Positions 17,242 through 49,469 of a DNA stretch of 64,000 bases are shown here, in pieces. A program made the position numbers and the translations under genes. Source of the DNA: Proteiniborus sp. DW1 (GTDB lineage: Bacteria; Bacillota; Clostridia; Tissierellales; Proteiniboraceae). The stretch is from NCBI RefSeq assembly GCF_900095305.1, contig NZ_FMDO01000062.1:1-64000 (forward strand), written 5' to 3'. Below the pieces are notes generated by a model, which saw only the letters and a list, made by a program, of their open reading frames with translations, was not told the DNA's origin and did no database searches. Each line of letters opens with the position of its first letter. The stretch's first letter is position 1.

Positions 17242-19056
17242 TTACCTAACTACTGGATCAAGTATTTCAAAGTTATCTACGTCAAGTAAGCCTTTGTCGC
17301 TTATTTTCCATTTTGGACTTGTAGATAAAGCTAAAAACGAAACGTGCATAAATGGAGCATGTAACGTTCCACCTAGCTGATTTTTTACAGTTGCCTCTAA
17401 AGCTGCTATTTTAGCACTTACTTCTGGACCAGTTAATTCATCTGTTATAAGTCCTCCAACTGGAAGTGCTAGTTCATCTAATATTCTACCATTATTAGCT
17501 ACAGCAACTCCGCCGCCCATTTCTATAACTCTATTTACAGCAACTACCATGTCTCTTAAATTAGTTCCTGTTACTGTTATATTATGCGTATCATGGGCAA
17601 TTGACTGAGCAAATGCACCTTGCTTCAATCCAATTCCTTTTACCATTGTCTTACCGATGTTTCCATTACGTCCATATCTTTCTAAGTTGGCTAAGTATAT
17701 TACGTCTTGGTTGACATCAGCTTCTACTACACCTCTATTAACTCTAACTTGAGCTTCACCAGTTCCTGTTAGGTTTTGATCAGGTATAGCCTGGATATAT
17801 CTAACTGTAGCAGTATTTCCCTCTGCCCTAATTTCTAAATCTGCTTCAGTAATAGGCGCTCTTTTCACTGAGTTTTTAACTACATCAGGATAAGTGTATT
17901 TTGGTAAATCTATTAATAGCTGTCCCTGTGAAGCTACTAATTGTCCTTTTATAAATACAGCCTCTACAGTCATTTCTTTAAGGTCACTGATAACAGCTAT
18001 GTCTGCTACTCTTCCTGGTAAAAGAGCTCCTCTATCATCTAGACCCCAATAAGTTGCAGGGTTGATTGTTGCCATTTGTATAGCTTCTATTGGGTCTACC
18101 CCTTCTCTTATTGTTCTTCTGATAATATCATTCATATGACCATATTTTTCTAAGTCCTCTGCAACCATGTCGTCTGAAACTAAGATAAGTCTTCTTGAAT
18201 CTAGTCCCTCTTCAGTCACAGCTCTTATACATTCAGCCATATTTCTTTGAGTAGAACCTTCTCTCATAAATACATATACGCCCTGTCTTAGCTTTTCAAT
18301 ACACTCTTCCTTAGTTGTTGTTTCGTGGCAGGAACAAGTTCCACCACAGCATATTATGTGAGCTGCTAAGTCAGCACCAAATAATTCCGGAGCATTCCCA
18401 TCAACTGGCTTTCCTAAACTCTTAGCATAAGTAGTTGAAGTCAATAAGTCTGTTATTATTTCTGGTGTATTTTTATATACATGCTTAGCAAGAGAAAATC
18501 CTTGTAGTTCTCCTATACCGAATATGTTTGGATAATTTAATAAGTCCTCCATATCCTTAGAATTTACATCAACACCTGCTGTCTCTAAACTTGGAGCATC
18601 AGGGGTTAAAGCTGGAACTTGTAGTCTTACATAGTTTGGTACTACATTACATTCGTCGGCCATAGCCTTCATAGCTACTGGTCCCAATGCATTACCTATT
18701 TCATGTGGGTCAGCTATTAAAGTTGTTGTACCAGAAGGTATAGATAATCTAGAAAACTCAGTAATAGTCAACATACTACTTTCAAAGTGCATATGTGAAT
18801 CCATAAATCCTGGTGATAGATATAAGCCTGTTACATCTACTACCTTTGTATCTGGTCCTATTAGTGATTTACAATCACCAACAAGTAGTATATAGTCTCC
18901 CTTTATAGCTATATCTGCTGTGTACACTTCTCTAGTTATTACATTTATCACATTACCGTTGTGAAGTACTATATCAGCAAAGTGTTTATCTGACATAAGT
19001 ACATCTATTAACTCTCTATATTCTATTGCTCTTTTTACATCTTGTGGCTTTAGCAA
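17242..19056 (-). CDS. BMC-associated adenine-deaminase paralogue (candidate 4-aminoimidazole deaminase)
   Basis: A 604-residue amidohydrolase of the Ade family, last gene of the shell operon (21 bases after the BMC-P gene). Metal motif HMH is at residues 88-90, ADPHEI near 115-120, SCHETTTKEE on strand 6 and VSDDMVAED for the strand-8 Asp. The strand-5 motif that is DGHGPE in the true Ade of this window is DGNAPEL here: the metal-ligand His is Asn221. This loss of a core ligand, the longer N-terminus and the position inside a BMC operon argue that it is not an ordinary adenine deaminase. The pathway needs a deaminase for 4-aminoimidazole, chemically analogous to adenine deamination. That assignment is inference; adenine deaminase remains the default alternative. 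Confidence 0.8.
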   Translation of the reverse strand: MLKPQDVKRAIEYRELIDVLMSDKHFADIVLHNGNVINVITREVYTADIAIKGDYILLVGDCKSLIGPDTKVVDVTGLYLSPGFMDSHMHFESSMLTITEFSRLSIPSGTTTLIADPHEIGNALGPVAMKAMADECNVVPNYVRLQVPALTPDAPSLETAGVDVNSKDMEDLLNYPNIFGIGELQGFSLAKHVYKNTPEIITDLLTSTTYAKSLGKPVDGNAPELFGADLAAHIICCGGTCSCHETTTKEECIEKLRQGVYVFMREGSTQRNMAECIRAVTEEGLDSRRLILVSDDMVAEDLEKYGHMNDIIRRTIREGVDPIEAIQMATINPATYWGLDDRGALLPGRVADIAVISDLKEMTVEAVFIKGQLVASQGQLLIDLPKYTYPDVVKNSVKRAPITEADLEIRAEGNTATVRYIQAIPDQNLTGTGEAQVRVNRGVVEADVNQDVIYLANLERYGRNGNIGKTMVKGIGLKQGAFAQSIAHDTHNITVTGTNLRDMVVAVNRVIEMGGGVAVANNGRILDELALPVGGLITDELTGPEVSAKIAALEATVKNQLGGTLHAPFMHVSFLALSTSPKWKISDKGLLDVDNFEILDPVVR

Positions 19057-20283: not shown

Positions 20284-20562
20284 CTATTCGTAGTTTTTAA
20301 GAATCACTCTTTCAACTTCTGAGTGTGGTCTTGGAATTACATGTACTGAATGTAACTCTCCTACTGCTCTTGCAGCTTCTGCACCAGCATCTGTTGCAGC
20401 CTTAACAGCACCTACATCTCCTCTCACCATAACTGTTACAAGACCAAAACCAATTTTATCATATCCCACTAAAGTAACATTTGCTGCTTTAACCATAGCA
20501 TCTGCTGCTTCAACAGCACCTACTAAACCTTTAGTTTCTACCATACCTAACGCTTGACTCAT
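20284..20562 (-). CDS. BMC-H hexameric shell protein (canonical)
   Basis: A 92-residue single BMC-domain protein nearly colinear with PduA/EutM/Ccm[43 protein letters not shown] and [11 protein letters not shown]. The loop lining the hexamer pore reads KIGFG, where propanediol shells often have KIGSG, so the pore is lined by a bulkier residue. It follows the extended BMC-H gene by 19 bases. Likely the main facet tile. No paralogue-specific extension is present. Confidence 0.95.
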
Positions 20563-20581: not shown

Positions 20582-20977
20582 TTACTTTGTAGTTGTCTTT
20601 TTTTTACTTTCTTCAGTATTAGCTTTTTTATCTTCATTTTCCTCTTTTTTTGATTCAACTTTTTGGTTATCTTTCTTAGATTTTAAGTTCTTTTCAAATA
20701 TTGAAATTAATCTATCTACTTCTTCATGTGGTCTAGGTATCACATGACCAGATACAACTTTACCAACTCTATTGCCAGCAGACACTCCAGCTTCAACAGC
20801 TGCCTTAACTGCGGCTACTTCACCTGCAATGTTAATAGTAACACTTACAAGCTTATCTACACCAATTACCTTCTCAACTCCTACAAGCTTCACATCTGCT
20901 GCCTTACTTGCAGCATCTAATGCTGTAATGGCTGCAGTTAATCCAACTACCTCGATTAATCCAAGAGCTGATTTCAC
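20582..20977 (-). CDS. BMC-H shell protein with charged C-terminal tail
   Basis: A 131-residue protein. Residues 1-90 are a BMC-H domain (LGLIEVVGLTAAITALDAAS, AVKAAVEAGVSAGNRVG, HVIPRPHEEVDRLI). The pore-loop region reads EKVIGVDKLVSV and lacks the usual glycine pair, so the pore is probably distinct or occluded. Residues about 95-131 form a Lys/Glu-rich disordered tail that could project from the shell or bind cargo or nucleic acid. Codons of the tail are AAA/GAA-rich. Domain identification is secure; the role of the tail is unknown. Confidence 0.93.
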   Translation of the reverse strand: MKSALGLIEVVGLTAAITALDAASKAADVKLVGVEKVIGVDKLVSVTINIAGEVAAVKAAVEAGVSAGNRVGKVVSGHVIPRPHEEVDRLISIFEKNLKSKKDNQKVESKKEENEDKKANTEESKKKTTTK

Positions 20978-21002: not shown

Positions 21003-21542
21003 CTATAGTAAGGAGCCCTTTTTTCCTATTGAGTTCAAAGAAACCTTAGGAATATAAGCTTCTAAATTGTTTATTACTCCTGTTTTTACATATACATCTT
21101 TCGTATTTTGTTGTTGCGCTACTTGATTATCTACAGTACTTACTTGATTGTTTGATTTTTTCACCTTGCTAGCTAAGTCATTTAGAGTCATCATAGTGTT
21201 TGATTTGTTGTCAATAGAATTACTGTTTTTCGGCTTTACATTTCCTTTAACTAAATCTTCAAGCCTAACTTTCTCGAATGTATTTACTCCACTGTTATAC
21301 TCTGCTGGCTTAGATACTGATTTAGATGCTCTCTCAGATAATGAATTAAGAGTATCTAAAGTTCTAGAAGGTCCAGTAGCTTTTCCTAAATTCTTATTCA
21401 TAACATTCAGTAGTAGTTGTTCGTCTTTTTGTCCTAATCCTGATATAGAATAAGTGTTTTTTGCAGAATTACTTCTTGTCTCGTTTATTTTACTACCTTG
21501 AGTAATGTTATTCATAATCACCCTTGCCAACGGGTTAGCCAT
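21003..21542 (-). CDS. Disordered protein between shell genes, candidate BMC scaffold
   Basis: About 179 residues, no family recognised. I start at the ATG at 21542 because GGGTGGTGA just upstream is a good ribosome-binding site; the upstream GTG codons lie inside that site. The chain is rich in Asn, Ser, Lys and Thr, and has no predicted fold. Short amphipathic helices are spaced along it: residues 3-16 (NPLARVIMNNITQG), 40-53 (DEQLLLNVMNKNLG), 92-99 and 118-129, plus a final NNLEAYIPKVSL block. Its place between BMC-H genes and the pattern of short helices joined by flexible linkers recall carboxysome scaffold proteins such as CsoS2 and CcmN. It may link cargo to shell. Inference only. Confidence 0.6.
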   Translation of the reverse strand: MANPLARVIMNNITQGSKINETRSNSAKNTYSISGLGQKDEQLLLNVMNKNLGKATGPSRTLDTLNSLSERASKSVSKPAEYNSGVNTFEKVRLEDLVKGNVKPKNSNSIDNKSNTMMTLNDLASKVKKSNNQVSTVDNQVAQQQNTKDVYVKTGVINNLEAYIPKVSLNSIGKKGSLL

Positions 21543-21561
21543 TTTATTCACCACCCTTTAG

Positions 21562-21828
21562 CTAATCTAACATTTTATCTACTTCGTCATGAGGTCTAGC
21601 AATGACATTTGTAGATATAATTTCAGCTAAGCCCTTTACTACTTCTGTTGCGTTATCAACGGCTGCTTTTACTGCTGCTACTTCACCTGATACTATTACA
21701 GCAACGACTCCAGAGCCGACAAAGTTCACATCAACTATGTGTACATCAGCTGACTTAACCATAGTATCAGCTGCCTGGATAGCAGCCACTAAACTTCTGG
21801 TTTCTACCATACCTATGGCCTGTCTCAT
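21562..21828 (-). CDS. BMC-H hexameric shell protein
   Basis: An 88-residue single BMC-domain protein: AIGMVETRSLVAAIQAADTM, FVGSGVVAVIVSGEVAAVKAAVDNA and NVIARPHDEVDKML. The pore segment reads NFVGSG, different from the other two BMC-H proteins in the operon, suggesting that the three tiles pass different small molecules. It lies 19 bases after the UbiD gene and directly before the disordered protein. The tight coupling to UbiD supports the view that the decarboxylase is cargo. Confidence 0.95.
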   Translation of the reverse strand: MRQAIGMVETRSLVAAIQAADTMVKSADVHIVDVNFVGSGVVAVIVSGEVAAVKAAVDNATEVVKGLAEIISTNVIARPHDEVDKMLD

Positions 21829-21847: not shown

Positions 21848-23212
21848 TTATTTTTTCATTCCTGGGAAATATTTTTGAATATCTATTTTCCCCTCAAATC
21901 CAGGAATCACTGCCATTTCATAAAAATGTGCTTTCTCACCTAAAGGCTTTGTAGCATCGATTCCCATTTTATCTGTAACTCCACGAGCCACATGGGATGC
22001 TTCTAATCCTGAACCTAAAGCTCCTGGAACTATTACCACATCCTGTGAAGCTTGAACTCTAGAAGCTAGTGCATGCTCTACACTTTTTACATTATATATA
22101 TCAACATCTTCATCTACTATTACCACATGCTTAATATCATAAAATGCACCAAGTGCGCCTAATATTGCAGACTTGCCATCTCCTTCTTTCTTCTTGCTTA
22201 TAGAAATAATAGCATGTAATCTGCATCCTCCGCCAACAGTTATGTTTACATCCTTTACATCTACCATGTTCTTAAGAGCCGCATATAGTTCTGCTTCTCT
22301 AATAAGCCCATTAGCAAGATGTTCCTCTCTACAAGGGAAGGCATGTTGGAATATAGGGTTATTTCTATGCATAATAGTCCTTACTTCCATAACTGGATTT
22401 GGGGCAACATCTCCATAGTAGTTCATTAATTCACCAAATGGTCCTTCAACTTCTCGCCTATTTGGAACTAATACTCCTTCGAGAACCATCTCTGCATATG
22501 CTGGAACTTCTAAATCAACAGAGTGGCATTTTACAAGCTCAAGAGGTTCACCCCTTAAAGCACTATCAACCTCATACTTGTTAAGACCATACTTTCTAGA
22601 GCCTATTTGAGATGCTAGAAGGAAAGTTGCATCATAACCAAGTACTACTGCACACTCTAACGGTTTATTCATTTTTTCAAACTCTGCAAATTGCTCCCTT
22701 AGTGCAGGAGAATGACCAGATATAAGTGCATTTATAATATTTCCTTTATGGACTTGAAATCTTCTAACTGCCATATGTGTATAACCTGTTTCAGGCTCTC
22801 TTACTATGAGCATACCTGCTGTTATGAAACTAGATGCATCTTTTTCATGAGAAGTAGGTACTGGTAACATTCTTTGTATATCAATATTTCTAGTAATGAT
22901 ATTTTCTTTTATTGGCCCATTACTTACTAACTTTGCAGGTTGAGGATTTGCTATTGCATTCATGTATTTAAATATTCTTTCTTCTGGTGTAGTATCGGTC
23001 ATCATGTAATAGAGTTCTCTATTTCCATAAAGCCCTCCTACTACAGGCATATCGTATCCTTTTACTCTGTTAAACAGTATAGGCTTTTCATTTTCAAAAT
23101 ATCTTAATACTGCTCCTAGTTCATATTTAGGATCTACTTCTACATTACATACTTCTAGCTCGCCAAGCTGCTCTAGCTTACTTAGAGTAGCCCTTAGCAT
23201 TTGTTTTTCCAT
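21848..23212 (-). CDS. UbiD-family decarboxylase (candidate 4-amino-5-imidazolecarboxylate decarboxylase)
   Basis: About 454 residues of the UbiD superfamily, whose members use prenylated FMN for reversible (de)carboxylation of aromatic or unsaturated acids. Conserved features are REPETGYTHMAVRRFQVH (cofactor-binding region) and VEGPFGELMNYYG, which carries the active-site Glu residues. I start at the ATG at 23212 because GGAAGGAGGGAG lies immediately upstream; the longer frame overlaps UbiX. Encoded between ubiX and the BMC genes. In the clostridial imidazole pathway 4-amino-5-imidazolecarboxylate must lose CO2, and this is the only decarboxylase in the cluster. The substrate is inferred from the pathway. 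Confidence 0.87.
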   Translation of the reverse strand: MEKQMLRATLSKLEQLGELEVCNVEVDPKYELGAVLRYFENEKPILFNRVKGYDMPVVGGLYGNRELYYMMTDTTPEERIFKYMNAIANPQPAKLVSNGPIKENIITRNIDIQRMLPVPTSHEKDASSFITAGMLIVREPETGYTHMAVRRFQVHKGNIINALISGHSPALREQFAEFEKMNKPLECAVVLGYDATFLLASQIGSRKYGLNKYEVDSALRGEPLELVKCHSVDLEVPAYAEMVLEGVLVPNRREVEGPFGELMNYYGDVAPNPVMEVRTIMHRNNPIFQHAFPCREEHLANGLIREAELYAALKNMVDVKDVNITVGGGCRLHAIISISKKKEGDGKSAILGALGAFYDIKHVVIVDEDVDIYNVKSVEHALASRVQASQDVVIVPGALGSGLEASHVARGVTDKMGIDATKPLGEKAHFYEMAVIPGFEGKIDIQKYFPGMKK

Positions 23213-23232
23213 ACTCTCCCTCCTTCCAAATC

Positions 23233-23787
23233 TTATTCTCCCCATCTTTTTGATATATTATGTTCTATGCCAAGCTGGTCTAACACTCTACCAATAATTG
23301 AACCCACAATATCTCCTATGCTTTCAGGATGATTATAAAAGCCTGGCGTTGGAGGTAATATTGTTGCACCTGCTTGTGCTAGCTTCAACATGTTCTCTAA
23401 ATGTATGGTGCTAAGTGGGGTTTCTCTAGGAACTATAACTAGCTTCCTTTTCTCTTTTATTATAACATCCGCAGCTCTTGTCAACAAATTATCTGACATA
23501 CCATGTGCAATGGATGCTACAGTTTTCATTGAGGAAGGAATAATCACCATTGCATCTGTTTTAAATGAACCACTTGCTATGGGTGCTGCAAAGTTTCTAT
23601 TATCATGATAATAAGTTGCTAACCCCTTTAACTCTTCAAGGGTTACACCACATTCATGTTCAACTACATATTCTCCCATGGTTGTCACTACAAGGTGAGT
23701 CTCTATGTTTAGCTCCTGAAGCACCTTTAAAAGAGCTAATCCATATATGCCACCACTTCCACCAGAGATCCCAACGATTACTCTCAT
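23233..23787 (-). CDS. ubiX: UbiX flavin prenyltransferase
   Basis: About 184 residues of the UbiX/Pad1 family, which attaches a dimethylallyl group to FMN to make the prenyl-FMN cofactor of UbiD enzymes. The N-terminal GISGGSGGIYGLALL is the flavin phosphate loop; VIIPSSMKTVASIAHG and IVPRETPLSTIHLENMLKL are family blocks. I choose the ATG at 23787 with GAGG upstream over the frame start at 23802. It precedes ubiD by 20 bases, so cofactor maker and user are co-expressed. A hairpin-rich 190-base leader separates it from the amidase gene. Confidence 0.92.
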   Translation of the reverse strand: MRVIVGISGGSGGIYGLALLKVLQELNIETHLVVTTMGEYVVEHECGVTLEELKGLATYYHDNRNFAAPIASGSFKTDAMVIIPSSMKTVASIAHGMSDNLLTRAADVIIKEKRKLVIVPRETPLSTIHLENMLKLAQAGATILPPTPGFYNHPESIGDIVGSIIGRVLDQLGIEHNISKRWGE

Positions 23788-23856
23788 ATGACATTTCCTC
23801 ACTTTCTGCTATTGGCCACAAATAAGTATAAGTCATAAATACTTTTATTATTTAGG

Positions 23857-23976: not shown

Positions 23977-24588
23977 TTATTTAACTTTGTTTTCTGGATC
24001 TCCTGCTCCTGCCCATGGATCTAAGCCTTTTTCAAATGCATCGATGTATTCATCTATAGTCATAACCTTTGTGAATATACTTAGGTCAACTAATCCATGT
24101 TGATGTTGTTCTTCTGTTTTTGAGTGAACTCCATCACTTAAAGTAATTACTTTATAAGCATTAGCTAGAGCATCAGCAGCTGTAGATCTAACACATACGT
24201 TTGTCCAAACTCCAGTTACTACCACTGTATCTATGCTTTCCTCTCTTAGGAATAGGTCTAAGTCTGTATGCCAGAATGCACTGTGTCTTCTCTTTTGAAT
24301 TATATATTCACCTTTTTCAGGATATAGTTCTTTTATGAAGTCAGAACCCCAAGTTCCCTTAACAGCGTGAACCGGTCTTACTCTGAAGTCTGCATCATTT
24401 TCTCTATGAGCTTCTTGAACATGAACTAGTTGAACATCGTCTTTTCCTTGAGCATTTCTTTCTCTTACCCATTTAAATAGCTTTTGAAGATTTGGAACTA
24501 TTTCTTCTCCACCTGGGCATCTTAAAGGTGCCTTTTCTCCTATGAAGTCATTTAACATGTCTATAACTACAATTGCGTGTTTTGCCAT
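23977..24588 (-). CDS. Isochorismatase-family cysteine amidohydrolase (candidate ureidoimidazole amidohydrolase)
   Basis: A 203-residue protein of the isochorismatase/nicotinamidase superfamily. The catalytic triad is visible: D10 in VVIDMLNDF, K99 in IIQKRRHSAF and C132 in VTGVWTNVCVRSTAADA. Relatives hydrolyse N-carbamoyl groups (N-carbamoylsarcosine amidase, ureidoacrylate amidohydrolase). It is encoded directly after the hydantoinase-type ring-opening enzyme. In the xanthine pathway the second step removes the carbamoyl group from 4-ureido-5-imidazolecarboxylate, giving CO2 and ammonia, so this protein is the natural candidate. Family certain; substrate inferred. Confidence 0.87.
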   Translation of the reverse strand: MAKHAIVVIDMLNDFIGEKAPLRCPGGEEIVPNLQKLFKWVRERNAQGKDDVQLVHVQEAHRENDADFRVRPVHAVKGTWGSDFIKELYPEKGEYIIQKRRHSAFWHTDLDLFLREESIDTVVVTGVWTNVCVRSTAADALANAYKVITLSDGVHSKTEEQHQHGLVDLSIFTKVMTIDEYIDAFEKGLDPWAGAGDPENKVK

Positions 24589-24692: not shown

Positions 24693-26291
24693 TTAGTATG
24701 TTATTGTTCTAGGTAATACTTGTATACTTTGTCTCTTAACAAATTTACCAAATCCAGGTTTAACCTTGATTCCTCTAATACTTCTAATATGTTGATCTAT
24801 AACCTCTGGATGATTCTTTCTATAGCTATTTTCGTATTCTGCACTGTATAGCTGAGGATATAGATCAAAGTGCTCTTTATATTTTTCTGCTACACCTTCT
24901 GGATAGTCATGAACTAACTTCTTAAGGTCTTCATCAGTCATTTCTGATAGTACGCTAGCATCCTCATCTACATATACTAGATGACCACGAACTATAGTCT
25001 TAACTACTTTTCCCTTTAGCTCCATACCTTCTAGTGGTGTATATCCACACATTGAAGCTTGTTTCTTAGGATCTATAGTCCAAGTCTTATCAAGATCTAT
25101 AATTGTAAAGTCTGCATCTGAACCTATGTTTAAAGCACCTTTCTTTGGATATAGTCCATAGTGCTTAGCAGCATTAGTAGATAGTATATCAACAAGTTTG
25201 CTTAATGAAATTCTTCCTTTATTGTATCCTTCACTTACTATAACAGGAACCATTGTCTCAACACCTGGGATTCCTGGGAATGCTGTCCAGATAGTTGTTC
25301 CTTCTTTTATCTTTTCACTTTCTAGTTCGTATGGAGCATGGTCTGTAGCTATGAAATCTATGCTACCATTTCTAATTCCTTCCCATTGCTCTTCGTTATC
25401 TCTCTTAGTTCTTAGAGGTGGAGCAATCTTAGCGTTTGCACCATGAATTGTCATAGATTCTTGATAATTTAATGTTAGATAGTGAGGACATGATTCTGAA
25501 GTTACATTTAAGCCTCTCTTCTTAGCTTCCCCTACTAATTTAGCACCTATTCCAGTACTCATGTGTACTATGTGTAGTCTAGCTCCTGAAGCTTCTGCAA
25601 AGCTGATTCCTAATTCTATAGCAACCTTTTCAGCTAATTCCATTCTTGCTTCTGCCCATGCTGGACCATCCATTCTTCCTTCTTCTCTGAATTTTTTAAC
25701 ATAAAAGTCACACATAGCGAAGTTTTCAGCATGAATTCCTATTGGAAGGCCTGTCTTAGCAACTGCCTTAAAGCACTCATACATTTCTGGATCAGTAACT
25801 CTTGGATAAGTTGGAACTGAAGGAGTCATGTATACTTTGAAAGCTACTACTCCTGCATCAGCTTGTTCTTGAACATTGTGTAGTCTGTTTTCTCTTACAT
25901 CTTCTCCAGTTACTCCACCCCAAAGTGCAAAGTCAACTAATGCTTGAGGTGCACATAAATCTTTCTTTAAATTTAATTGATCAACGCTTCTTACAGATGG
26001 AACTGAACAGCATGGCATATCTATAACTGTTGTTATTCCACCTGCTGCAGCTGCGGCTGTACCAGTTAAAAAGTTCTCTCTATGTGGGAAACCTTGATAC
26101 ATAAAGTGAGTGTGTGAATCAATACATCCTGGTAAAGTTAAATGTCCGTGAGCATCTATTGTATTCTTTGCTTCTATTCCATCAATACAATCTGTGAAAC
26201 CTGCTATTTTTTCATCTTTAACCAAGATGTTAGTTAATACTGTATAGTCCCCTTGAGGGATTCTAGCATTTTTAAGAATTAAATCATACAT
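24693..26291 (-). CDS. Hydantoinase/allantoinase-type amidohydrolase (candidate xanthine amidohydrolase)
   Basis: About 532 residues of the cyclic amidohydrolase family (dihydropyrimidinase, allantoinase). The binuclear metal site is complete: H60 and H62 in DSHTHF, K152 in VVAFKVYMT (the carbamylated lysine), GIHAENF, LHIVHMST, and the catalytic Asp in FIATDHAPYE. The start at 26291 is set by AGGAGG 9 bases upstream; the longer frame begins in that site. Relatives open cyclic ureides by amide hydrolysis. Xanthine ring opening to 4-ureido-5-imidazolecarboxylate is the first step of the clostridial pathway and the same chemistry. Allantoinase is the main alternative, but no other ureide gene (allantoicase, ureidoglycolate enzymes) is present. 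Confidence 0.87.
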   Translation of the reverse strand: MYDLILKNARIPQGDYTVLTNILVKDEKIAGFTDCIDGIEAKNTIDAHGHLTLPGCIDSHTHFMYQGFPHRENFLTGTAAAAAGGITTVIDMPCCSVPSVRSVDQLNLKKDLCAPQALVDFALWGGVTGEDVRENRLHNVQEQADAGVVAFKVYMTPSVPTYPRVTDPEMYECFKAVAKTGLPIGIHAENFAMCDFYVKKFREEGRMDGPAWAEARMELAEKVAIELGISFAEASGARLHIVHMSTGIGAKLVGEAKKRGLNVTSESCPHYLTLNYQESMTIHGANAKIAPPLRTKRDNEEQWEGIRNGSIDFIATDHAPYELESEKIKEGTTIWTAFPGIPGVETMVPVIVSEGYNKGRISLSKLVDILSTNAAKHYGLYPKKGALNIGSDADFTIIDLDKTWTIDPKKQASMCGYTPLEGMELKGKVVKTIVRGHLVYVDEDASVLSEMTDEDLKKLVHDYPEGVAEKYKEHFDLYPQLYSAEYENSYRKNHPEVIDQHIRSIRGIKVKPGFGKFVKRQSIQVLPRTITY

Positions 26292-26351
26292 TTTTTTACT
26301 TCCTCCTCTTCTTCTATATTTTACCAAGTGTTAGCGTTTTCATGCCTTTTC

Positions 26352-26399: not shown

Positions 26400-28070
26400 T
26401 TAGAACAGTCCAACTATAGTGCCATCTGGAAGTATATCCATCTTGTTTGCTGCCGGCACCTTTGGTAACCCTGGCATTGTCATTACTTCTCCCGTTAGCG
26501 CTACTATAAATCCAGCACCTGCTGATAATCTTAACTCTCTTACTGTTATTGTGAATCCTTTTGGTCTTCCTAAAAGTGATGCGTCATCTGATAGAGAGTA
26601 TTGTGTTTTAGCCATACAAATTGGCATTTTATCTAGTCCTAAATCAGCTAATGTTTTAGCCATTTTTTCTGCACCTTTTGTGAATACTACTCCATCTGCT
26701 CCGTAAACTTCTTTTGCAATCTTTGTAATCTTATCTTTTATTGAAAGCTCTACATCATATAGCGGTTTGAAGTTAGATTCTTTACCTTCTACTACTTCTA
26801 TTACCTTCTTAGCTAATTCAATTCCACCTTCTCCACCATTAGCCCATACATCTGATATAGCTACTTCTGCTCCTGATGCCTTTACTTTTTCAAATACTAG
26901 ATTTAACTCTGCTTCTGTATCTGTCGGGAATTTGTTAATTGCTACTATTGATGGTACTCCAAATTTAGCTACATTTTCTATATGTTTCTCTAGGTTTTCT
27001 AATCCCTTTTCTAGAGCTTCTAGGTTTTCTGCTCCTAAGTCTGCTTTTGCTACTCCACCATGCATCTTAAGCGCTCTTACAGTAGCTACTATAACTGCTG
27101 CCGCTGGCTTTAATCCTGCAAATCTACACTTTATATCAAAGAACTTTTCTGCTCCTAGGTCTGCTCCGAATCCTGCTTCTGTTACTGCGTAGTCTCCTAG
27201 TTTTAGCGCCATTTTTGTTGCTAGTACACTGTTACAGCCATGCGCTATGTTCGCAAACGGTCCTCCGTGAATTAAAGCTGGAGTATTTTCTAGTGTTTGT
27301 ACTAGGTTAGGCTTTATAGCATCTTTTAGTATTAGAGCTAGTGCTCCTGTAGCTTCTAAGTCTTTAGCTCTTACTGGATTTCCTTCCATGTTATATGCTA
27401 CTACCATGTTTCCTAGTCTTTCTTTTAGATCTTCTAGGCTTGTTGCTAAACATAATATAGCCATTATTTCTGATGCTACTGTTATATCAAATCCATCTTG
27501 TCTAGGTACTCCGTCAGCTTTTGCTCCTAGTCCTATTACAATATTTCTAAGAGCACGATCATTCATATCTACTACTCTTTTCCAAACTATTCTTCTTGTG
27601 TCTATATTTAATGCATTTCCTTGATGTATATGGTTATCTAGTAACGCTGCTAGTAGACTATGTGCTGAAGTAATTGCGTGGAAGTCTCCTGTAAAGTGTA
27701 GATTTATGTCTTCCATTGGTACTACTTGTGCGTATCCTCCACCTGCTGCTCCACCTTTTACCCCAAATGATGGTCCTAATGATGGTTCTCTTAATGCTGT
27801 TATAGTCTTTTTGCCTAATTTGTTTAGCCCCATGCTTAGACCAATGTTTGTTGTTGTCTTTCCTTCTCCTGCTGGTGTTGGATTTATTGCTGTAACTAAT
27901 ATTAGTTTTCCATCTGGCTTATCCTTTAGTCTGTCAAATACGTCTAATGACACTTTCGCCTTGTATTTTCCGTATAATTCTAATTCATCATCTAGTATTC
28001 CTATTTGCTCAGCTATTTCTGATATAGGTTTCATTTTAGCTTCTTGTGCTATTTGAACGTCTGTTTTCAC
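26400..28070 (-). CDS. fhs: Formate-tetrahydrofolate ligase
   Basis: A 556-residue protein colinear with clostridial formyl-THF synthetase. The ATP loop [15 protein letters not shown] is at about residues 65-79, followed by [23 protein letters not shown]-type segment near 95-117 and the C-terminal [22 protein letters not shown] signature in shorter form. The start is GTG with AGGAGGAG upstream. In purine fermenters the enzyme runs in the ATP-forming direction from 10-formyl-THF to formate, the main substrate-level phosphorylation. It lies 77 bases after the formiminotransferase gene, which supplies the one-carbon unit. Confidence 0.97.
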
Positions 28071-28147: not shown

Positions 28148-29092
28148 TTATTCCATTAAGTGTGTTTCTAATATTTGGCTTCTTCTAAAACCTTCTAATC
28201 CTAAGTAGTACTCTAGAGAGTTAACTATATATTCTAATTTAACTGGTCCTACTATTTCTGAACCTGTTACTGGAATACCATATCTTTTAGCTTCTTGTTT
28301 TACTAATTCAAATACTCTATATATTGGAGTGTTTGCACAGTCAAACATGTTTACTGATACTACTACTCCTTCTCTCTCTGGGAATTTGATTCCTACTGCT
28401 CTTGTTGTTGAGAATCCACCGCTTGGTCCTCTTACTGCTTTTGCTATTTTTTTAGCAATTTCTACATCTTCTGTTGCTAAGAATACGTTATATGCTGTCA
28501 ATCCTTCTGCTTCTGCGCTTACTATAGTTGCTCCTGCAGTGCTTGAAAGTAGGCCGTCTTTGCTTAGATCAGGTTTTCTTGATTCATATTCTGCTTTTCT
28601 TGATTCGTCATCTTTGATTTCTTCTAGTAAAGCTTTCAATCCTTCATATTGCCCTTTTCTTATGAAAGCTAGCGCTCTTCTTTCTTCTGTTCTTGCATTT
28701 TCTGCTGCAAAGAATATTGGCACACCAGTTCTTTCATGTAATTCTTTACCTATTTCTTCTGCTAATTTAACACATTCTTCTACTGTAATATTTTTGAATG
28801 GGAATAGAGGGATAGTATCTTGAGCACCAATTCTTGGATGTGTGCCCTTTTGCTCTTCCATGTTGATTAATTCTATGGATTTTGCTGCCATATTAAGTAA
28901 TGCTGTCTTAAGAGGTGCTGGCTCTCCTATAACTGTAACTACTGTTCTGTTAAAGTCATGCTCTGGCTCATAACTTACAAGCTTAACTCCTTCTACCTTT
29001 CTAACTTCATCTACTACTGCTTCAATAACTTCTTTTCTTCTACCATCACTAAAATTAGGTACTGCTAAAATGTACTGTTTGTCTAAAGACAT
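28148..29092 (-). CDS. Formiminotransferase (glutamate/glycine type)
   Basis: A 314-residue protein matching the N-terminal transferase half of animal formiminotransferase-cyclodeaminase: AVPNFSDGRRKEVIEAV at the start, then GTHPRIGAQDTIPLFPF, FFAAENARTEERRALAFIRKGQ and GIKFPEREGVVVSVNM. The cyclodeaminase half is a separate gene at 32.3 kb. The usual annotation is glutamate formimidoyltransferase, for histidine breakdown. Here no histidine-degradation gene is nearby and the neighbours are purine enzymes, so formiminoglycine is the likelier donor, as described for C. cylindrosporum and C. acidurici extracts. First gene of the long minus-strand cluster; the start follows AAGGAGG. Confidence 0.92.
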   Translation of the reverse strand: MSLDKQYILAVPNFSDGRRKEVIEAVVDEVRKVEGVKLVSYEPEHDFNRTVVTVIGEPAPLKTALLNMAAKSIELINMEEQKGTHPRIGAQDTIPLFPFKNITVEECVKLAEEIGKELHERTGVPIFFAAENARTEERRALAFIRKGQYEGLKALLEEIKDDESRKAEYESRKPDLSKDGLLSSTAGATIVSAEAEGLTAYNVFLATEDVEIAKKIAKAVRGPSGGFSTTRAVGIKFPEREGVVVSVNMFDCANTPIYRVFELVKQEAKRYGIPVTGSEIVGPVKLEYIVNSLEYYLGLEGFRRSQILETHLME

Positions 29093-29669
29093 TTTATAAC
29101 CTCCTTTTCTATTTTAAAGATTTTTATAAGCATTTTATGTTGCTTTCTCTCTAAAACATTGCATCTGATTTGCTTCATGTTTATAATACCATAAATAACG
29201 GTCTTTTACCTTTGTCATTTTTATATAAATCATCAGCGTTTTAAAGTAATTTTTTGTGCAGTTTTTTGTATAAATTCTATATGTTTTCTTCAAGATTGTT
29301 GTTATTCATAGCTTTTCCTATAGATTAAACTTTTCCTCATTCATGTTGTTCTCCGTATCACATCCTTTTTTGATTTAGATATGGGTTTTATAATTTGTAT
29401 AAATTTTATGAATGATTTTTTTTAAATAAATAGTATAATGATATTCAATAACATAATTAAATAGAAAGTCCAACATTGTGTTATAATATTGGCAAGGATT
29501 TAAGACTTCCAAAATATTATGCGCTATTTTTAAGTTTTAAATGCAAGTATTTCATTTGTTTTTCTACCCATTATTTAGATAAATAACTCAATGTATATTT
29601 TTATTTTTTTATGGGTAGCTAATAATTAAGTACGAATGTATTAAATTTAAATATGAAAGGAGCTTTTAA
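29093..29669. promoter_or_regulatory. Divergent promoter region with candidate PucR element
   Basis: A 577-base gap between the minus-strand purine cluster and the plus-strand cyclase gene; it is very AT-rich with no coding signal. At 29297-29325 lies an element that, on the minus strand, contains AAAGCTATGAATAA, closely repeated in the other divergent gap (33133-33160) and at nearly the same distance from the downstream start (205 and 225 bases). TATAAT sequences occur on the plus strand at 29434-29439 and 29482-29487, but without good -35 boxes, as expected if an activator is needed. Confidence 0.5.
29297..29325 (-). promoter_or_regulatory. Candidate PucR operator, copy 1
   Basis: Minus-strand reading: ATCTATA, two bases, AAAAGCTATGAATAA then CAACA. 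The same pattern occurs at 33133-33160 with one- and two-base spacing changes. PucR is encoded between the two sites. Function is inferred from conservation and position. Confidence 0.45.
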
Positions 29670-30365
29670 ATGGGGTTAAAATTAATTGATTTGACTCAAG
29701 ATATTTACGAAGGAATGCCTTTATACGGAATTCATCAGAAAACATTTATTATGACAAATCAAACTCACGAGCAAAGTCAAAAAGCTACTGGAAGCCCAAC
29801 TCTAGGTTTTTATGCAAGAAATCTTCTAATAAGTGAGCACTGCGGAACTCATAGCGATGCTGTCCTAGAATTTAAGCCAGGGGGAGCGGATATTATTGAA
29901 ATGCCTTTAGATTATTTCTGGGGTAGTGCTATCTGCGTAGACCTAAGTCATATAAGATATCCTAACTACATAGAAGTAAAGGATTTAGAAATGGCTGTAG
30001 CGAAATCTGGGCAAACAATTCAAAAAGGTGATATCTTTCTTATGTATACTGGTCTATACAATAGAAGTTATGGTACTCCAGAATATGAAAATTATTATAC
30101 AGGTTTAAGCTATGATGCTGCTAAATGGCTTGCAGAAAAAGGAGTAGTTAATATAGGTGTAGATGCCCCTGCTATAGATCAGACTCCAGACGACTTAACT
30201 TTTGCTGGACATTTAGTATGCGGAGAATATAACATAACTAACACTGAAAACCTATGCAATTTAGATAAAGTAGTTAATAAACGTTTCTTATATTTTGGTC
30301 TACCACTAAGAATCCGTGGAGGTACAGGTTCCCCTATAAGAGCAGTTGCATTAATAGAAGAATAG
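29670..30365 (+). CDS. Cyclase-family metal hydrolase (candidate 4-imidazolonase)
   Basis: A 231-residue protein of the cyclase/kynurenine-formamidase-like family (Zn- or Mn-dependent amide hydrolases). The signature is H57-C-G-T-H61-S-D63-A-V-L-E67-F; the family norm is HxGTHxDxPxHF, so the usual last histidine is Glu67 and the proline is missing. Downstream GHLVCGE and ENLCNLDKV match the second metal/acid region. It is divergent from the purine cluster and shares its regulatory gap. After assigning other genes, the pathway lacks an enzyme opening 4-imidazolone to formiminoglycine; this hydrolase fits that amide-cleaving step. Substrate is inference. Confidence 0.82.
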   Translation: MGLKLIDLTQDIYEGMPLYGIHQKTFIMTNQTHEQSQKATGSPTLGFYARNLLISEHCGTHSDAVLEFKPGGADIIEMPLDYFWGSAICVDLSHIRYPNYIEVKDLEMAVAKSGQTIQKGDIFLMYTGLYNRSYGTPEYENYYTGLSYDAAKWLAEKGVVNIGVDAPAIDQTPDDLTFAGHLVCGEYNITNTENLCNLDKVVNKRFLYFGLPLRIRGGTGSPIRAVALIEE

Positions 30366-30368
30366 TGA

Positions 30369-30399
30369 AAAGCGGCTAAGTTAGCCGCTTTGTTTTTTG
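30369..30399 (+). terminator. Bidirectional terminator between cyclase gene and pucR
   Basis: AGCGGCTAA and TTAGCCGCT form a 9-bp stem with a single-base loop gap, extended by flanking A/T pairs and followed by TTGTTTTTT on the plus strand. It serves the cyclase gene and, by symmetry, the convergent pucR gene. Confidence 0.75.
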
Positions 30400-30417: not shown

Positions 30418-32091
30418 CTACTTGTTTAATAACTGTTTAATTTTAAGTGCTATTTCTAAGTTAAGTCGGTCGTTGGGATTTTCAAGGTCCATATTAGTTA
30501 TATCTTTTATTCTTTGGATTCTGTATAGAACCGTATTATAATGAGTAAATAGGGAATCGGACATTTTCTTTAAGTTTCCATTGTTGTCAAAATAAGCGCT
30601 AAGAGTCTTAACAAGTTCAGTTGATTTTTTTTCATCATATTCAACTAAAGGTTTTAAAGTAGAGTCATAGAATTTGATTAATTCATTCTCTATGTTATCT
30701 TGACATAATATCTTAAATATACCTAGATTTTCAAAGCTGGTGATTATGTTGTCATTCAATATTCTTCCTGTTTTTATAGCTTTAATTGAATCTAAATAAC
30801 TGTAATTAAAGTTCTCTAGTCCTTCATAGGCTCTTCCAATTCCTATTCGAAAATCTAAATCCTTAAATTTATTAATAATGTCTAAGAAATTTTTATTGAT
30901 TTCTTCTAATAACGCCTCTAATTGTGTATCTTTTTTTAGACATAGAAGTATTTGAATTCTTTCAGTTTTACTTACAACTATTGCATTGAGCCCCATTTGT
31001 TTAATGATGTTTCTTTCAATCAGGTCATGGATTTTTGTAATATGCTGCTGTGTTTGTCCAGATGCCATATCTACCCTTTTAGAGGCTTCATCATTGTTTT
31101 TTATTTTCAAAGTTATGCTTACAAATTTATCCTTCTTACCAAAGTTAAAAAATGATGCTCTCTCTAGTGCCTTCTCTACTCTTCTTTCTTCCAGTGAAAT
31201 CAGGTCATCGAAAAACTCTGATTTATATCTATTTTCAACCTCTTTAACTGAAAGCGCCTTTAATATTTCGAGGGCCATAGTTGTAGATGCAATTTCAAGT
31301 ACAGATAAGTCATATCCTCCTAGGGGAGTATTTGTAGACCAAGCAACTATATGTCCATATATACTGTCCTTAGCAACTATAGGAAATACCATTCTTTTTA
31401 TATATTTTCCTCCTATTAGCTCGTTGCTTTCTTCTAGTTTCTTTTCCTTATATCTCTCTGAAATTGGCGAAAAGCACTTGTCAGCATTCTCAAGTAGAAG
31501 CTCCTTCACTGAATCATCCACAGAGTCAAACTCAATAATTATTTCTTCTGGATATTCAAATCGAACATAGATAGGATTCTTTATACTATCGCTTATTAGT
31601 TTAACTATTTGGCTTGTATTGGCTCCCCTCAACATGGCATCCATAAATTGTTCATATATTTTTTCTATCTTCTTTAGTAGATAAGCTTGCCTATTGAATA
31701 TATCATTAAATAAGGGAGTCATTATATCAGAAAGTGGCGTAGCATAATATAGGTCTATTATAGGAAAGTTTAAATCATCTGCTAAACTTATTACTTCCTC
31801 TGAAAGAGACTCTAAATATGGATATATTTTAATGCCTATACCTGCTAATTTCTTCTTAGCACACTCTTTAATAAGCTTTTTCTGTTCTTCTATATTATCT
31901 TTTTTAAAAGAATAGGCTGTGGTTAATAAAAGCTCGCCTTCATCTACCCAGCTTAAAATATCAGGGTCTGCCATAACATTTACTTTAGATATTGTATTTC
32001 TAATTCCTTTAAACCCTGCTATAAGCTTGCAGTTTTTCATATATTCCATATTTAAAGCATCTTCTATAGTAATACCATTTTGTCTACCCAT
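30418..32091 (-). CDS. pucR: PucR-family purine catabolism regulator
   Basis: About 557 residues. The N-terminal PucR domain (about 10-130; ITIEDALNMEYMKNCKLIAG, DILSWVDEGELLLTTAY) is followed by a GGDEF-like/CdaR-type middle region and a C-terminal helix-turn-helix (LSAYFDNNGNLKKMSDSLF then HYNTVLYRIQRIKDITNMDL) of the PucR HTH_30 type. I place the start at the ATG at 32091, seven bases after GGGGGGG. It lies between two divergent intergenic regions sharing a sequence element and so is the probable regulator of both sides. In Bacillus, PucR responds to allantoin-type intermediates; the effector here is unknown. Confidence 0.93.
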   Translation of the reverse strand: MGRQNGITIEDALNMEYMKNCKLIAGFKGIRNTISKVNVMADPDILSWVDEGELLLTTAYSFKKDNIEEQKKLIKECAKKKLAGIGIKIYPYLESLSEEVISLADDLNFPIIDLYYATPLSDIMTPLFNDIFNRQAYLLKKIEKIYEQFMDAMLRGANTSQIVKLISDSIKNPIYVRFEYPEEIIIEFDSVDDSVKELLLENADKCFSPISERYKEKKLEESNELIGGKYIKRMVFPIVAKDSIYGHIVAWSTNTPLGGYDLSVLEIASTTMALEILKALSVKEVENRYKSEFFDDLISLEERRVEKALERASFFNFGKKDKFVSITLKIKNNDEASKRVDMASGQTQQHITKIHDLIERNIIKQMGLNAIVVSKTERIQILLCLKKDTQLEALLEEINKNFLDIINKFKDLDFRIGIGRAYEGLENFNYSYLDSIKAIKTGRILNDNIITSFENLGIFKILCQDNIENELIKFYDSTLKPLVEYDEKKSTELVKTLSAYFDNNGNLKKMSDSLFTHYNTVLYRIQRIKDITNMDLENPNDRLNLEIALKIKQLLNK

Positions 32092-32133
32092 TTGCATTCC
32101 CCCCCTTAAATTTTTTATATAGCAATCCCTCTA

Positions 32134-32272: not shown

Positions 32273-32908
32273 TTATAGTTTTGAATAAACTACTTTTAAT
32301 GTTTCTTCTTTAAGGTCTTTACCTTCTTTTAGTAATGCATCACATTGCTTTCTGATTTCCGCTACATAATTCTGGTCGCTTATTCCACCTAAGTTAATTA
32401 AAACGTTAAATAGTGCTCCCTCTAAGCCTGCACACGCTAATAATGCTCCAACTCCCACATCAGTGATTGCATTTGGATTCCCATAGTCTGCAAATACTTT
32501 TTGTAGTTTTAATACTTCTAATGACTCTCTAGCTGCATCAAGAGGAACTTCCATAGCCTTTTTTAAAGCTTCTTCCATTGCAGCTTTTCTTGCAGCTTTT
32601 TCTTCGTCTGTTTCTTTTGGTAACTTCAATGCTGCCATATAGTCATTAAATGCTGTTGTATCTTCATCAATCAATTCGTTTAGTCTCTCAACATGTTTAA
32701 CAACTTTTTCAAAGTTTGTATCTAATTGAGCTCTTTGGTTTTCTTCTAATGCATTATAAGCTTTCTTTCCAAAAGTCAAGTTTCCTACCATTGAAGTTAA
32801 AGCTGCACCTAAACTACTTGCTAGCGCTGATACACTTCCACCACCTGGAGCAGGCTCATTGCTTGCTACAGCTGCAACAAAATCCTTAACTGTTTTTTCT
32901 ACTAACAT
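32273..32908 (-). CDS. fchA: Formimino-THF cyclodeaminase / methenyl-THF cyclohydrolase
   Basis: A 211-residue all-helical protein of the cyclodeaminase/FchA family, equal to the C-terminal half of bifunctional formiminotransferase-cyclodeaminase. The start VKDFVAAVASNEPAPGGGSVSALASSLGAALTSMVGNLT carries the folate-binding glycine-rich turn (APGGGSVSAL). It releases ammonia from 5-formimino-THF to give 5,10-methenyl-THF, and relatives also hydrolyse this to 10-formyl-THF, the substrate of Fhs. Single-gene unit with own terminator; its promoter region shares an element with that of the formiminotransferase gene. Confidence 0.92.
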   Translation of the reverse strand: MLVEKTVKDFVAAVASNEPAPGGGSVSALASSLGAALTSMVGNLTFGKKAYNALEENQRAQLDTNFEKVVKHVERLNELIDEDTTAFNDYMAALKLPKETDEEKAARKAAMEEALKKAMEVPLDAARESLEVLKLQKVFADYGNPNAITDVGVGALLACAGLEGALFNVLINLGGISDQNYVAEIRKQCDALLKEGKDLKEETLKVVYSKL

Positions 32909-33416
32909 ATTATTCCTCCTTATGTAGTAATACTCTTACATTATTATTTATTAATTTACTACAATATATTCATTATAATAACATAAATATTGGATAATGT
33001 CTATGTGTATTTTTTACAATTAACTTCAATGAAAAATTACTTTAACTACAATCTATAACTCTTGTAAGCCTCTAATTATCTTATGTTTATTATATAATAG
33101 ATTTGATTTTTTCTTTAATTGATTAATGTTCATGTTGTTTATCCATAGCCTTTTATAGATATTTGATTTTATTGTGTATTTCTTACAAATTTTTTAAATG
33201 CTACTTTTATGACGTTTTCAAACTTCCTGTAAATTTACACATTTCCAAGGGTAGTCCACATTTATATAATTTTGAATTTTGTAATTTCCCAATTTTTAGG
33301 TCTTGCTTAAATCTAATTTATACTTTAAAATCACAACTATAATAAAAATTGTTGTTAACTTTGCTAGCATAAAGCAATCGTTTTCATCCTAAACTTTAAT
33401 GAGAGGAGCAATTATA
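32909..33416. promoter_or_regulatory. Divergent region between cyclodeaminase and xanthine permease
   Basis: About 500 AT-rich bases without coding signal. The second copy of the candidate PucR element is at 33133-33160, 225 bases from the cyclodeaminase start. A minus-strand TATAAT is present at 33089-33094 with a poor -35 box. The plus-strand promoter for the permease is not evident. No purine riboswitch core is visible. Confidence 0.45.
33133..33160 (-). promoter_or_regulatory. Candidate PucR operator, copy 2
   Basis: Minus-strand reading: ATCTATA, AAAGGCTATGGATAAA, CAACA; matches the element at 29297-29325 in order and nearly in spacing. Confidence 0.45.
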
Positions 33417-34790
33417 ATGAGTACAACAATGACAAACAAAAAAATAATTAGCGGTACTAAAGAAAAAATTGATTCCGCTGCTGGTAGCTCTAACTTACTT
33501 TACAAAATTGAGGATAGACCACCTCTTTCTGTAGCTATTCTTCTTGCATTTCAAAATATTATAGCTGCCTTTGGTGGTATCGTAGCCGTTCCTTTAGTTG
33601 TTGCAGGAGCACTAGGGCTTTCTGTTCAGGACACCGCTTTCATGGTAAGTGCAGCAATATTTGTAGCAGGTATTGCAACATTTATTCAAACAAAAGGTAT
33701 TTGGAAAATTGGTGCTAGGGTTCCTTGTATAATGGGAACAGACTTTACTTTCGTTGCGCCTTCTATCGCAGTTGGTTCTACTGCAGGACTAGCTGGAATG
33801 TTTGGTGCTACAATACTAGGTTCCTTTGTAGAAATGATTTTAAGCCGTTTCTTAAAGCCACTTATGAGATTTTTCCCGCCTGTAGTTACAGGAACAGTTG
33901 TTACACTAATAGGTTTAACATTACTTCCTGTTTCAATGGATTGGGCAGCAGGTGGAGTTGGATCAGCTGACTACGGTAGTCTTACAAACATAGTTATATC
34001 AATGGTAGTTATGATTATAATAATTTTATTGAATAGATATGCAAAAGGTATATTAAGCAGTGCTTCTATATTAGTAGGAATAGTGATAGGTTATATAATC
34101 TGTTATCCTTTAGGTATGCTGGATTTCACTGCTGTAAAAGAAGCAAGTTGGATAGCTTTCCCAAGTATATTTAAGTATGGAATAGATTTTAATCCTGTTC
34201 ATGTAATTCCATTTATAGCTGCATATTTAGTTACATCTATAGAAACAGTAGGTTGTCTAATGGCTATAGGAGAAGCTTGTGAAACAGAATTATCAGGAGA
34301 ACAATTAAGTGCAGGTTTATTAGCTGATGGTATAGGAAGTTTTATAGCAGGTTTCTTTGGAGCTGGTGCTAATACTTCATTCAGCCAAAATGTAGGACTT
34401 ATTCCTCTTACAAGAGTTGCAAGTAGATATGTGGTAATAGTAGCAGGGGTTATTCTAGGGTTACTAGGTTTATTCCCTAAATTTAGTACACTAATTGCAA
34501 TCATGCCTAATCCAGTTTTAGGAGGAGCAGGTATTGTAATGTTTGGTGTTGTTGCAGCATCTGGTATTAAGACTCTAAGTAAAGTTAAAGGAAATAACCG
34601 TAATCTGTTAATAATAGCAGTTTCTATTGGACTAGGATTAGGTACAACAATGAGACCTGATTTCTTAGCAAATCTACCAGGTGTTCTACAAAGTATTTTC
34701 TCATCAGGAATTAGTACTGGTACAGTAGTTGCACTTTTATTAAACATAATATTAAAAGAAGAAAAAGATACTGAAGAAGTTAGTGCATAG
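33417..34790 (+). CDS. Uracil-xanthine permease (NCS2 family)
   Basis: About 457 residues of the nucleobase-ascorbate transporter branch of NCS2, with LLAFQNIIAAFGGIVAVPLVV near the start and the signature GLLADGIGSFIAGFFGAGANTSFSQN-type block near residue 300, where Q/N residues bind substrate in characterised xanthine and uracil carriers. About 12-14 membrane segments. The ATG at 33417 with GAGAGGAG upstream is preferred to the frame start at 33399. Divergent from the cyclodeaminase gene and next to pucR, so xanthine or urate uptake is likely; uracil is possible. Confidence 0.92.
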   Translation: MSTTMTNKKIISGTKEKIDSAAGSSNLLYKIEDRPPLSVAILLAFQNIIAAFGGIVAVPLVVAGALGLSVQDTAFMVSAAIFVAGIATFIQTKGIWKIGARVPCIMGTDFTFVAPSIAVGSTAGLAGMFGATILGSFVEMILSRFLKPLMRFFPPVVTGTVVTLIGLTLLPVSMDWAAGGVGSADYGSLTNIVISMVVMIIIILLNRYAKGILSSASILVGIVIGYIICYPLGMLDFTAVKEASWIAFPSIFKYGIDFNPVHVIPFIAAYLVTSIETVGCLMAIGEACETELSGEQLSAGLLADGIGSFIAGFFGAGANTSFSQNVGLIPLTRVASRYVVIVAGVILGLLGLFPKFSTLIAIMPNPVLGGAGIVMFGVVAASGIKTLSKVKGNNRNLLIIAVSIGLGLGTTMRPDFLANLPGVLQSIFSSGISTGTVVALLLNIILKEEKDTEEVSA

Positions 34791-35153: not shown

Positions 35154-35966
35154 ATGTCAAAATCATTTTTAGCACCAAACGAAATTGCTGAATCTACCAT
35201 CAACGTAGGAATTAAAAAAGCAAATAATTCTACAATTAACATGCTTATTCTAGGAATACTTGCTGGGCTCTATGTTGCCTTTGGAGGTCATGCTGATATA
35301 ACTATCATGCAGACATTTTCTAAAATCGACCTAGGTCTTGCTAAATTTCTTGGTGCTGCAGTCTTTCCTGTAGGGTTATTGCTAGTACTTGTTGCTGGAG
35401 CTGAGCTTTTTACAGGTAACTGTCTCATGACAATGGCTTTATCTGATAAGAAAATTACATTAAAACAAATGTTAAAAAATTGGAGTCTTGTTTATTTCGG
35501 AAACTTCATTGGCTCTATTATATTTGCAGCAGCTTTAGTTTATGTAGGCGCGTATAAAGCTGGTACTCCAATGACAGAAACTGCCTTTTCCATTGCCACT
35601 GGTAAAATGACTGCTTCAGTTGGTCAAATAATTGTAAAGGGTATATTCTGTAATATTTTAGTTTGTCTTGCAGTGTGGATGTCATTTGGAGCACAAGATA
35701 TTTCTTCAAAAGCAGTAGCTATATGGTTCCCAGTAATGACATTTGTAATGGTTGGGTTCGAGCATAGTGTTGCAAATATGTTTTTCTTACCACTTGCTAA
35801 ATTTGCTGGTTATGATATAACTTGGGGACAAATGCTGTTTCATAGTATAATACCTGCTACAATAGGCAATATTATAGGTGGTGCAGTGATTGTTGCTTTA
35901 TTATATTATGTAGTATATATAGTACCTCAACGCAAGGCTGATGCAAAAGTTAAATCGAGAGCTTAG
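35154..35966 (+). CDS. focA: Formate/nitrite transporter (FocA family)
   Basis: A 270-residue FNT-family channel with six hydrophobic helices. Recognisable blocks are ILGILAGLYVAFGG, GAELFTGNCLMTMAL (the conserved AELFTGN motif of FNT channels) and FEHSVANMFFLPL. The start follows AAAGGAGG. Purine fermentation yields formate through Fhs, so export of formate, or its return for oxidation by formate dehydrogenase, is the likely role. Nitrite is an alternative substrate of the family but nothing nearby supports it. Monocistronic, flanked by a promoter and a strong hairpin. Confidence 0.93.
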   Translation: MSKSFLAPNEIAESTINVGIKKANNSTINMLILGILAGLYVAFGGHADITIMQTFSKIDLGLAKFLGAAVFPVGLLLVLVAGAELFTGNCLMTMALSDKKITLKQMLKNWSLVYFGNFIGSIIFAAALVYVGAYKAGTPMTETAFSIATGKMTASVGQIIVKGIFCNILVCLAVWMSFGAQDISSKAVAIWFPVMTFVMVGFEHSVANMFFLPLAKFAGYDITWGQMLFHSIIPATIGNIIGGAVIVALLYYVVYIVPQRKADAKVKSRA

Positions 35967-49353: not shown

Positions 49354-49469
49354 AACTAGTGGCAAAACATTAAATTTTACCAACAGGTTAAAACTTTCCT
49401 TTCCAAATACGGGAGGCACAAGAATTTCTCCTTATACCCATCGGCTAGACTTCATGGTCAACATTGACT

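Follow-up and report, generated by a model that had tools for sequence, protein, structure and literature searches.

A cyclase-family hydrolase gene of Proteiniborus sp. DW1 very probably encodes a 4-imidazolonase, which would convert 4-imidazolone to formiminoglycine in the xanthinase route of purine fermentation. This ring-opening assignment was put forward in a first-pass annotation of the window (the whole analyzed stretch of 64,000 nucleotides), and the comparative evidence described below strongly favors it. The protein carries Glu67 at a position where the family has a catalytic histidine, and this residue marks one orthologous group, so that its occurrence is not due to chance. An enzyme activity of the 1950s would thus gain a gene with a simple mark, Glu in HxxTHxDxxxE, by which purine ring opening would become readable from genomes, gut ones included.

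The cyclase gene and the purine-fermentation operon

The cyclase ORF starts with ATG and encodes 231 amino acids. Residue 67 within HCGTHSDAVLEF was read from a GAA codon and, as the first-pass annotation had stated, replaces the family histidine by Glu. The same annotation described the gene as divergent from the purine operon with a common gap, which was confirmed: 577 bp separate its start from that of the FTCD gene, which lies on the opposite strand. No Rfam match was present in this gap, and the promoter-like sites near the cyclase gene were uninformative, six being observed compared with 6.7 expected from shuffles. Riboswitch control of the gap was rejected, the window's only Rfam match at the gathering score being a molybdenum cofactor riboswitch at 49380-49501 on the minus strand (74.2 bits), where the surrounding molybdopterin and formate dehydrogenase genes were named by eye.

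In the classical pathway, xanthine is converted through ureido-imidazolecarboxylate, amino-imidazolecarboxylate, aminoimidazole, and imidazolone to formiminoglycine. Setting the operon against this pathway gave a candidate for each step except the ring opening of 4-imidazolone; the reactions assigned to the other operon enzymes are likewise proposals (Table 1). The classical pathway is described in part in PMC3519856. A PucR-family regulator gene, which is convergent with the cyclase gene here, also adjoins the cyclase in many relatives. The ORF between the shell protein genes (21003-21554, minus strand) may encode a microcompartment protein with a cargo or linker function.

Table 1. Features of the cyclase gene, the purine-fermentation operon and other window genes, and of the DUF1989 modules at other loci
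Feature	Coordinates	Strand	Basis or context
PF04199 cyclase-family hydrolase, predicted 4-imidazolonase	29670-30365	+	ORF, Pfam, fold, co-occurrence
Motif HCGTHSDAVLEF, residues 57-68, with metal ligands His57, His61, Asp63	29838-29873	+	Sequence; alignment
Glu67 codon GAA, position of the family's catalytic histidine	29868-29870	+	Sequence comparison
Ribosome-binding-like AAAGGAG, 5' of cyclase ATG	29656-29662	+	Sequence
Terminator-like hairpin, 3' of cyclase stop	30369-30391	+	Sequence
Divergent intergenic region, 577 bp, 23% G+C	29093-29669		Cyclase start to formiminotransferase start
Formiminotransferase (FTCD N-terminal type), proposed formiminoglycine formiminotransferase	28148-29092	-	TIGR02024 312 bits, cut-off 221; PF07837
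Formate-tetrahydrofolate ligase	26400-28070	-	PF01268
Allantoinase/dihydropyrimidinase-like amidohydrolase, proposed xanthine amidohydrolase	24693-26327	-	PF01979; 346.6 bits vs allantoinase cut-off 357.85
Isochorismatase-family hydrolase, proposed 4-ureido-5-imidazolecarboxylate amidohydrolase	23977-24588	-	PF00857
UbiD and UbiX, proposed 4-amino-5-imidazolecarboxylate decarboxylase and its flavin prenyltransferase	21848-23802	-	TIGR00148, TIGR00421 over cut-off
Microcompartment (BMC) shell proteins (three)	20284-20562, 20582-20977, 21562-21828	-	PF00936
ORF, 183 aa, between shell protein genes	21003-21554	-	No Pfam match at 1e-5
Adenine-deaminase-like amidohydrolase, proposed 4-aminoimidazole deaminase	17242-19056	-	TIGR01178 460.6 bits, below cut-off 472.5; PF13382; co-occurrence with cyclase, 23/23 genomes
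True adenine deaminase, separate from the 17242-19056 gene	9473-11203	-	TIGR01178 655.4 bits, over cut-off
PucR-family regulator, convergent with cyclase gene	30418-32097	-	PF07905, PF13556
FTCD C-terminal/FchA-like cyclodeaminase	32273-32908	-	PF04961; NF045657 200.8 bits, below cut-off 275
Xanthine/uracil-type permease	33399-34790	+	PF00860
Formate/nitrite transporter	35154-35966	+	PF01226
DUF1989 gene	L073:7527-8141		Before deaminase; M20 hydrolase adjacent
DUF1989 gene	L092:10737-11360		Directly after cyclase; M20 hydrolase adjacent
DUF1989 gene	L093:10714-11334		Directly after cyclase; M20 hydrolase adjacent
DUF1989 gene	L095:10698-11321		Directly after cyclase
DUF1989 gene	L096:10709-11320		Directly after cyclase
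DUF1989 gene	L098:10684-11295		Directly after cyclase
DUF1989 gene	L100:10845-11456		Directly after cyclase

Tong and coworkers reportedly characterized a prenyl-FMN decarboxylase together with four hydrolases that belong to different families. Their cluster belongs to the same pathway, and the set fits the window operon if the cyclase is counted among these hydrolases; therefore, the cyclase was probably assayed by them, and the 4-imidazolonase assignment is probably in print. According to PMC12507026 and PMC12990295, this xanthinase-pathway gene cluster was published in 2023 (Tong et al., Cell Chem Biol); the former places it in Clostridia and Bacilli. The word "imidazolonase" did not occur in the papers retrieved by one literature search, another returned no match that joined the cyclase family, purine, and microcompartment, and the main text of a microcompartment catalogue (PMC8217296) contained none of "xanthine", "purine", and "XAU". 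What may still be unpublished are the residue signature, the modules lacking xanthinase, and the exchange of formiminotransferase for DUF1989; of these, the modules and the exchange are the most novel.

Distribution and neighborhoods of the Glu67 cyclases

The orthologous group consisted of 82 proteins, namely the window protein and 81 ORFs in 80 GTDB loci, and residue 67 was Glu in 79 of them and His in three. Among 38 distant PF04199 members in relatives (38 of the 41 listed matches), 31 had His, five had Lys, two had no readable motif, and none had Glu. The His67 proteins, L099 and L101 (both from Bathyarchaeota) and L102 (deltaproteobacterium), showed 42-51% identity. They formed one clade (99/99) in an unresolved fork with Bacilli-type rows, in a tree that used nine of the 38 distant sequences, whose bootstrap had not settled, and in which the L060 row is a second, short copy.

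The first-pass annotation had proposed checking whether Glu at this position tracks with purine clusters. It does: pathway genes were present in the fetched flanks of 69 of the 77 Glu67 loci and near none of the three His67 loci. Xanthine amidohydrolase, isochorismatase-type, UbiD, and deaminase genes occurred together at 37 Glu67 loci; at 13 more, xanthine amidohydrolase was found with or without some of the other three, and 19 had deaminase or formiminotransferase without xanthine amidohydrolase. Five of the remaining eight, which showed no pathway genes, belong to genomes with a xanthine amidohydrolase elsewhere (G061, G065, G067, G068, and G073). Some loci were shortened by contig ends. 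Glu67 in unrelated contexts, which would speak against the assignment, was thus confined to three of the 77 loci (L054, L087, and L097), where both upstream enzymes were absent at the thresholds used. L054 comes from Fretibacterium fastidiosum, which has a formiminotransferase, and L087 from a 1.0-Mb assembly. At L097:9998-10684 (Bacillus suaedae), a lone Glu67 cyclase lies beside enolase and phosphoglycerate mutase genes, and no deaminase, window-type xanthinase, or formiminotransferase was detected in this genome at the thresholds used. Across all 80 loci, the upstream neighbor was a divergent purine gene in 50 (26 formiminotransferase, 21 xanthine amidohydrolase, and one each of isochorismatase-type, permease, and formate-tetrahydrofolate ligase), and the deaminase was located upstream of the cyclase on the same strand in 16.

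Formiminotransferase was encoded at 37 of the 80 loci, none of which had DUF1989. Seven modules carried a DUF1989 gene (Table 1), and formiminotransferase was found at 1e-30 in none of these seven loci or their seven genomes. In one check, all 22 genomes that have no DUF1989 locus contained a homologue of it, some at only 45-46%. Among 36 genomes checked, DUF1989 was detected in the seven, in G084 (L097), and in G070, where it lies outside the module. Against a strict rule, formiminotransferase was also not found in G060 (L027), G078 (L087), G084 (L097), and the three His67 genomes. Carboxyguanidine deiminase is assigned to the DUF1989 family in PMC11271267. We infer that the DUF1989 protein is a candidate formiminoglycine deiminase, which would be followed by the M20 enzyme as N-formylglycine hydrolase. 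Formiminotransferase and DUF1989 as alternative formimino consumers point to a formimino product. If true, their exchange would provide a function for a DUF1989 subgroup and a pathway exit independent of tetrahydrofolate.

These exits bear on whether the cyclase cuts a later or side product, such as N-formylglycine, formamide, or another formyl or formimino amide, instead of the ring. Kynurenine formamidase, an N-formyl amide hydrolase, is among its nearest characterized relatives, which would suit such a role. However, where a formiminotransferase coexists with the cyclase, no formyl amide would remain as its substrate, the cyclase is common to formiminotransferase-type and DUF1989-type modules, and ring opening would be left without an enzyme; we therefore consider a side-product role improbable.

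The distribution of the predicted 4-imidazolonase was compared in 60 genomes, including its own, with orthologues defined by 66% identity or more. Orthologues were found in 23 genomes, and the next-best matches showed at most 36% identity, save one 46-residue piece at 53%. The adenine-deaminase-like gene occurred in the same 23 genomes and in none of the other 37. Xanthine amidohydrolase was present in 22 of the 23 (the exception being G010) and likewise in none of the 37. Families f7, f8, f10, and f13 contain both states and were concordant throughout. Fisher's test for cyclase against deaminase gave 4e-17, which is not a clean probability because the genomes are related. Linkage to the pathway was therefore observed with the deaminase in 23 of 23 genomes, and with formiminotransferase or DUF1989 as formimino consumer.

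HutI, as proposed for the cyclase, cleaves an imidazolone ring and yields a formimino amino acid, but it belongs to the amidohydrolase superfamily, with a fold unrelated to that of the cyclase. The cyclase had been called the only unassigned C-N hydrolase left for ring opening, which is true within the window, where nothing matched HutI over the cut-off, but not in the genome, which encodes a true HutI elsewhere (G000:C30, 477 bits). This HutI, whose normal substrate is an imidazolone, might open 4-imidazolone and leave the cyclase another job in the cluster. However, HutI (1e-60 or better) did not track the pathway, being present in 17 of 23 cyclase-positive and 33 of 37 cyclase-negative genomes. 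It was missing from the cyclase-positive G010, G017, G026, G030, G042, and G051, four of which are at least 97% complete. HutI was rejected as the ring-opening enzyme because of this distribution, and we regard its involvement as very unlikely. The literature search returned nothing on a glutamate mechanism of HutI.

Modules without xanthine amidohydrolase

At seven loci (L071, L079, L082, L083, L088, L090, and L091), the cyclase was accompanied by the deaminase and formiminotransferase, and in most also by the FTCD C-terminal gene. The window-type xanthine amidohydrolase was absent from these loci, the best match in their genomes being 2.9e-77 at 35% or less. Gene-cluster context alone cannot order the steps; that deaminase, cyclase, and formiminotransferase stay together without the first steps is the best argument for the step order. 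An NCS1 permease was found at L071 and, by clustering, at L079, and a urea/branched-chain-type ABC transporter at L083 and, by clustering, at L073, L088, and L090. At L082:12395-18242 (Moorella stamsii), genes for an ECF transporter, a creatininase-family hydrolase, an isochorismatase-family protein, and UbiD follow deaminase-cyclase-FTCD-FchA; these extra genes could provide another way to open xanthine, as a non-orthologous replacement of xanthine amidohydrolase.

Such transporters, together with deaminases only 56-60% identical to the window deaminase, would be compatible with a different cyclic amidine, and not 4-imidazolone, being the true substrate of the deaminase-cyclase pair in organisms that lack xanthinase, and possibly also in the window. 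Nevertheless, the full purine set is present in the window, and many of the small modules retain formiminotransferase, which calls for a formimino product; another substrate is thus highly improbable. We consider it an evenly balanced proposal that the adenine-deaminase-like enzyme and the Glu67 cyclase constitute a portable unit for the conversion of 4-aminoimidazole to formiminoglycine, which would also occur in Thermodesulfobacteriota, Moorella, and other Clostridia where xanthinase is missing. Its exits would be exchangeable, either formiminotransferase or DUF1989 as formiminoglycine deiminase, in some cases with an adjacent M20 enzyme cutting N-formylglycine, and Glu for His would be the mark of imidazolone specificity.

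Family, fold and metal site

The cyclase protein matched Pfam PF04199 with 121.9 bits (cut-off 23.1) and contains the HxxxHxD metal motif. His57, His61, Asp63, His181, and Glu193 did not vary among the 39 aligned proteins and correspond to His50, His54, Asp56, His161, and Glu173 of KynB. Glu67 aligned with KynB His60 and was the sole changed position of the KynB six. The first-pass annotation had described an altered metal motif, which has to be corrected: all five ligands are kept and the change is restricted to the sixth residue, indicating that the metal motif is unaltered and the acid-base residue is changed.

In the proposed mechanism, the metal site of these five ligands would activate water, which would attack the C4 carbonyl of 4-imidazolone and open the ring to formiminoglycine. 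Formiminotransferase would then move the formimino group to tetrahydrofolate, leaving glycine. Glu67 occupies the position of the histidine that handles protons, as general base, in kynurenine formamidase and isatin hydrolase; it may take over this role or hold the amidine end of the substrate. 4-Imidazolone also decays spontaneously.

The AlphaFold2 model, predicted with 39 aligned proteins (window and loci), had a mean pLDDT of 91.0 and a pTM of 0.87. Among solved structures, isatin hydrolase 4m8d scored highest (Z 27.1), and the other best matches were Ruegeria cyclase 8f9x and kynurenine formamidase (4cob, Z 24.9); in the VIA comparison, the best 13 rows had Z 19.9-27.1 and the first unrelated row had 8.2. 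Foldseek gave 34 matches with E <= 0.001, every one an entry for an isatin hydrolase, a kynurenine formamidase, a "cyclase", or a metal-dependent hydrolase, and entries without such a title were presumed to be of the PF04199 kind.

TIGR03035 arylformamidase was the only NCBIfam match at E <= 0.01, with 70.5 bits against a curated cut-off of 223.05, and TIGR01224 (HutI) was not matched in this search. KynB (4cz1, 4co9, 4cog, and 4cob) resembles the cyclase in fold, in HxxxHxD, and in the His and Glu that bind the second metal, as described in PMC4243253. According to the same paper, His60 is strictly conserved in 336 KynB-like sequences, whereas the cyclase has Glu67, and its context is purine, not tryptophan. 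Identity with KynB, to which the TIGR03035 match might point, is hardly credible and was rejected because the score is far below the cut-off and His60 is missing; the gene also lies in a purine operon.

Isatin hydrolase (4m8d, 4j0n, 5nna, and 5nmp) opens a cyclic amide and gave the top structural score. The cyclase differs from it by Glu in place of His79, the corresponding residue according to passages of PMC4243253 and PMC6117287, and by the absence of both GLQC and GLAS, the signature given for isatin hydrolase in a passage of the latter, at about 23% identity. By analogy, isatin hydrolase is a precedent for the opening of a cyclic amide with the cyclase fold.
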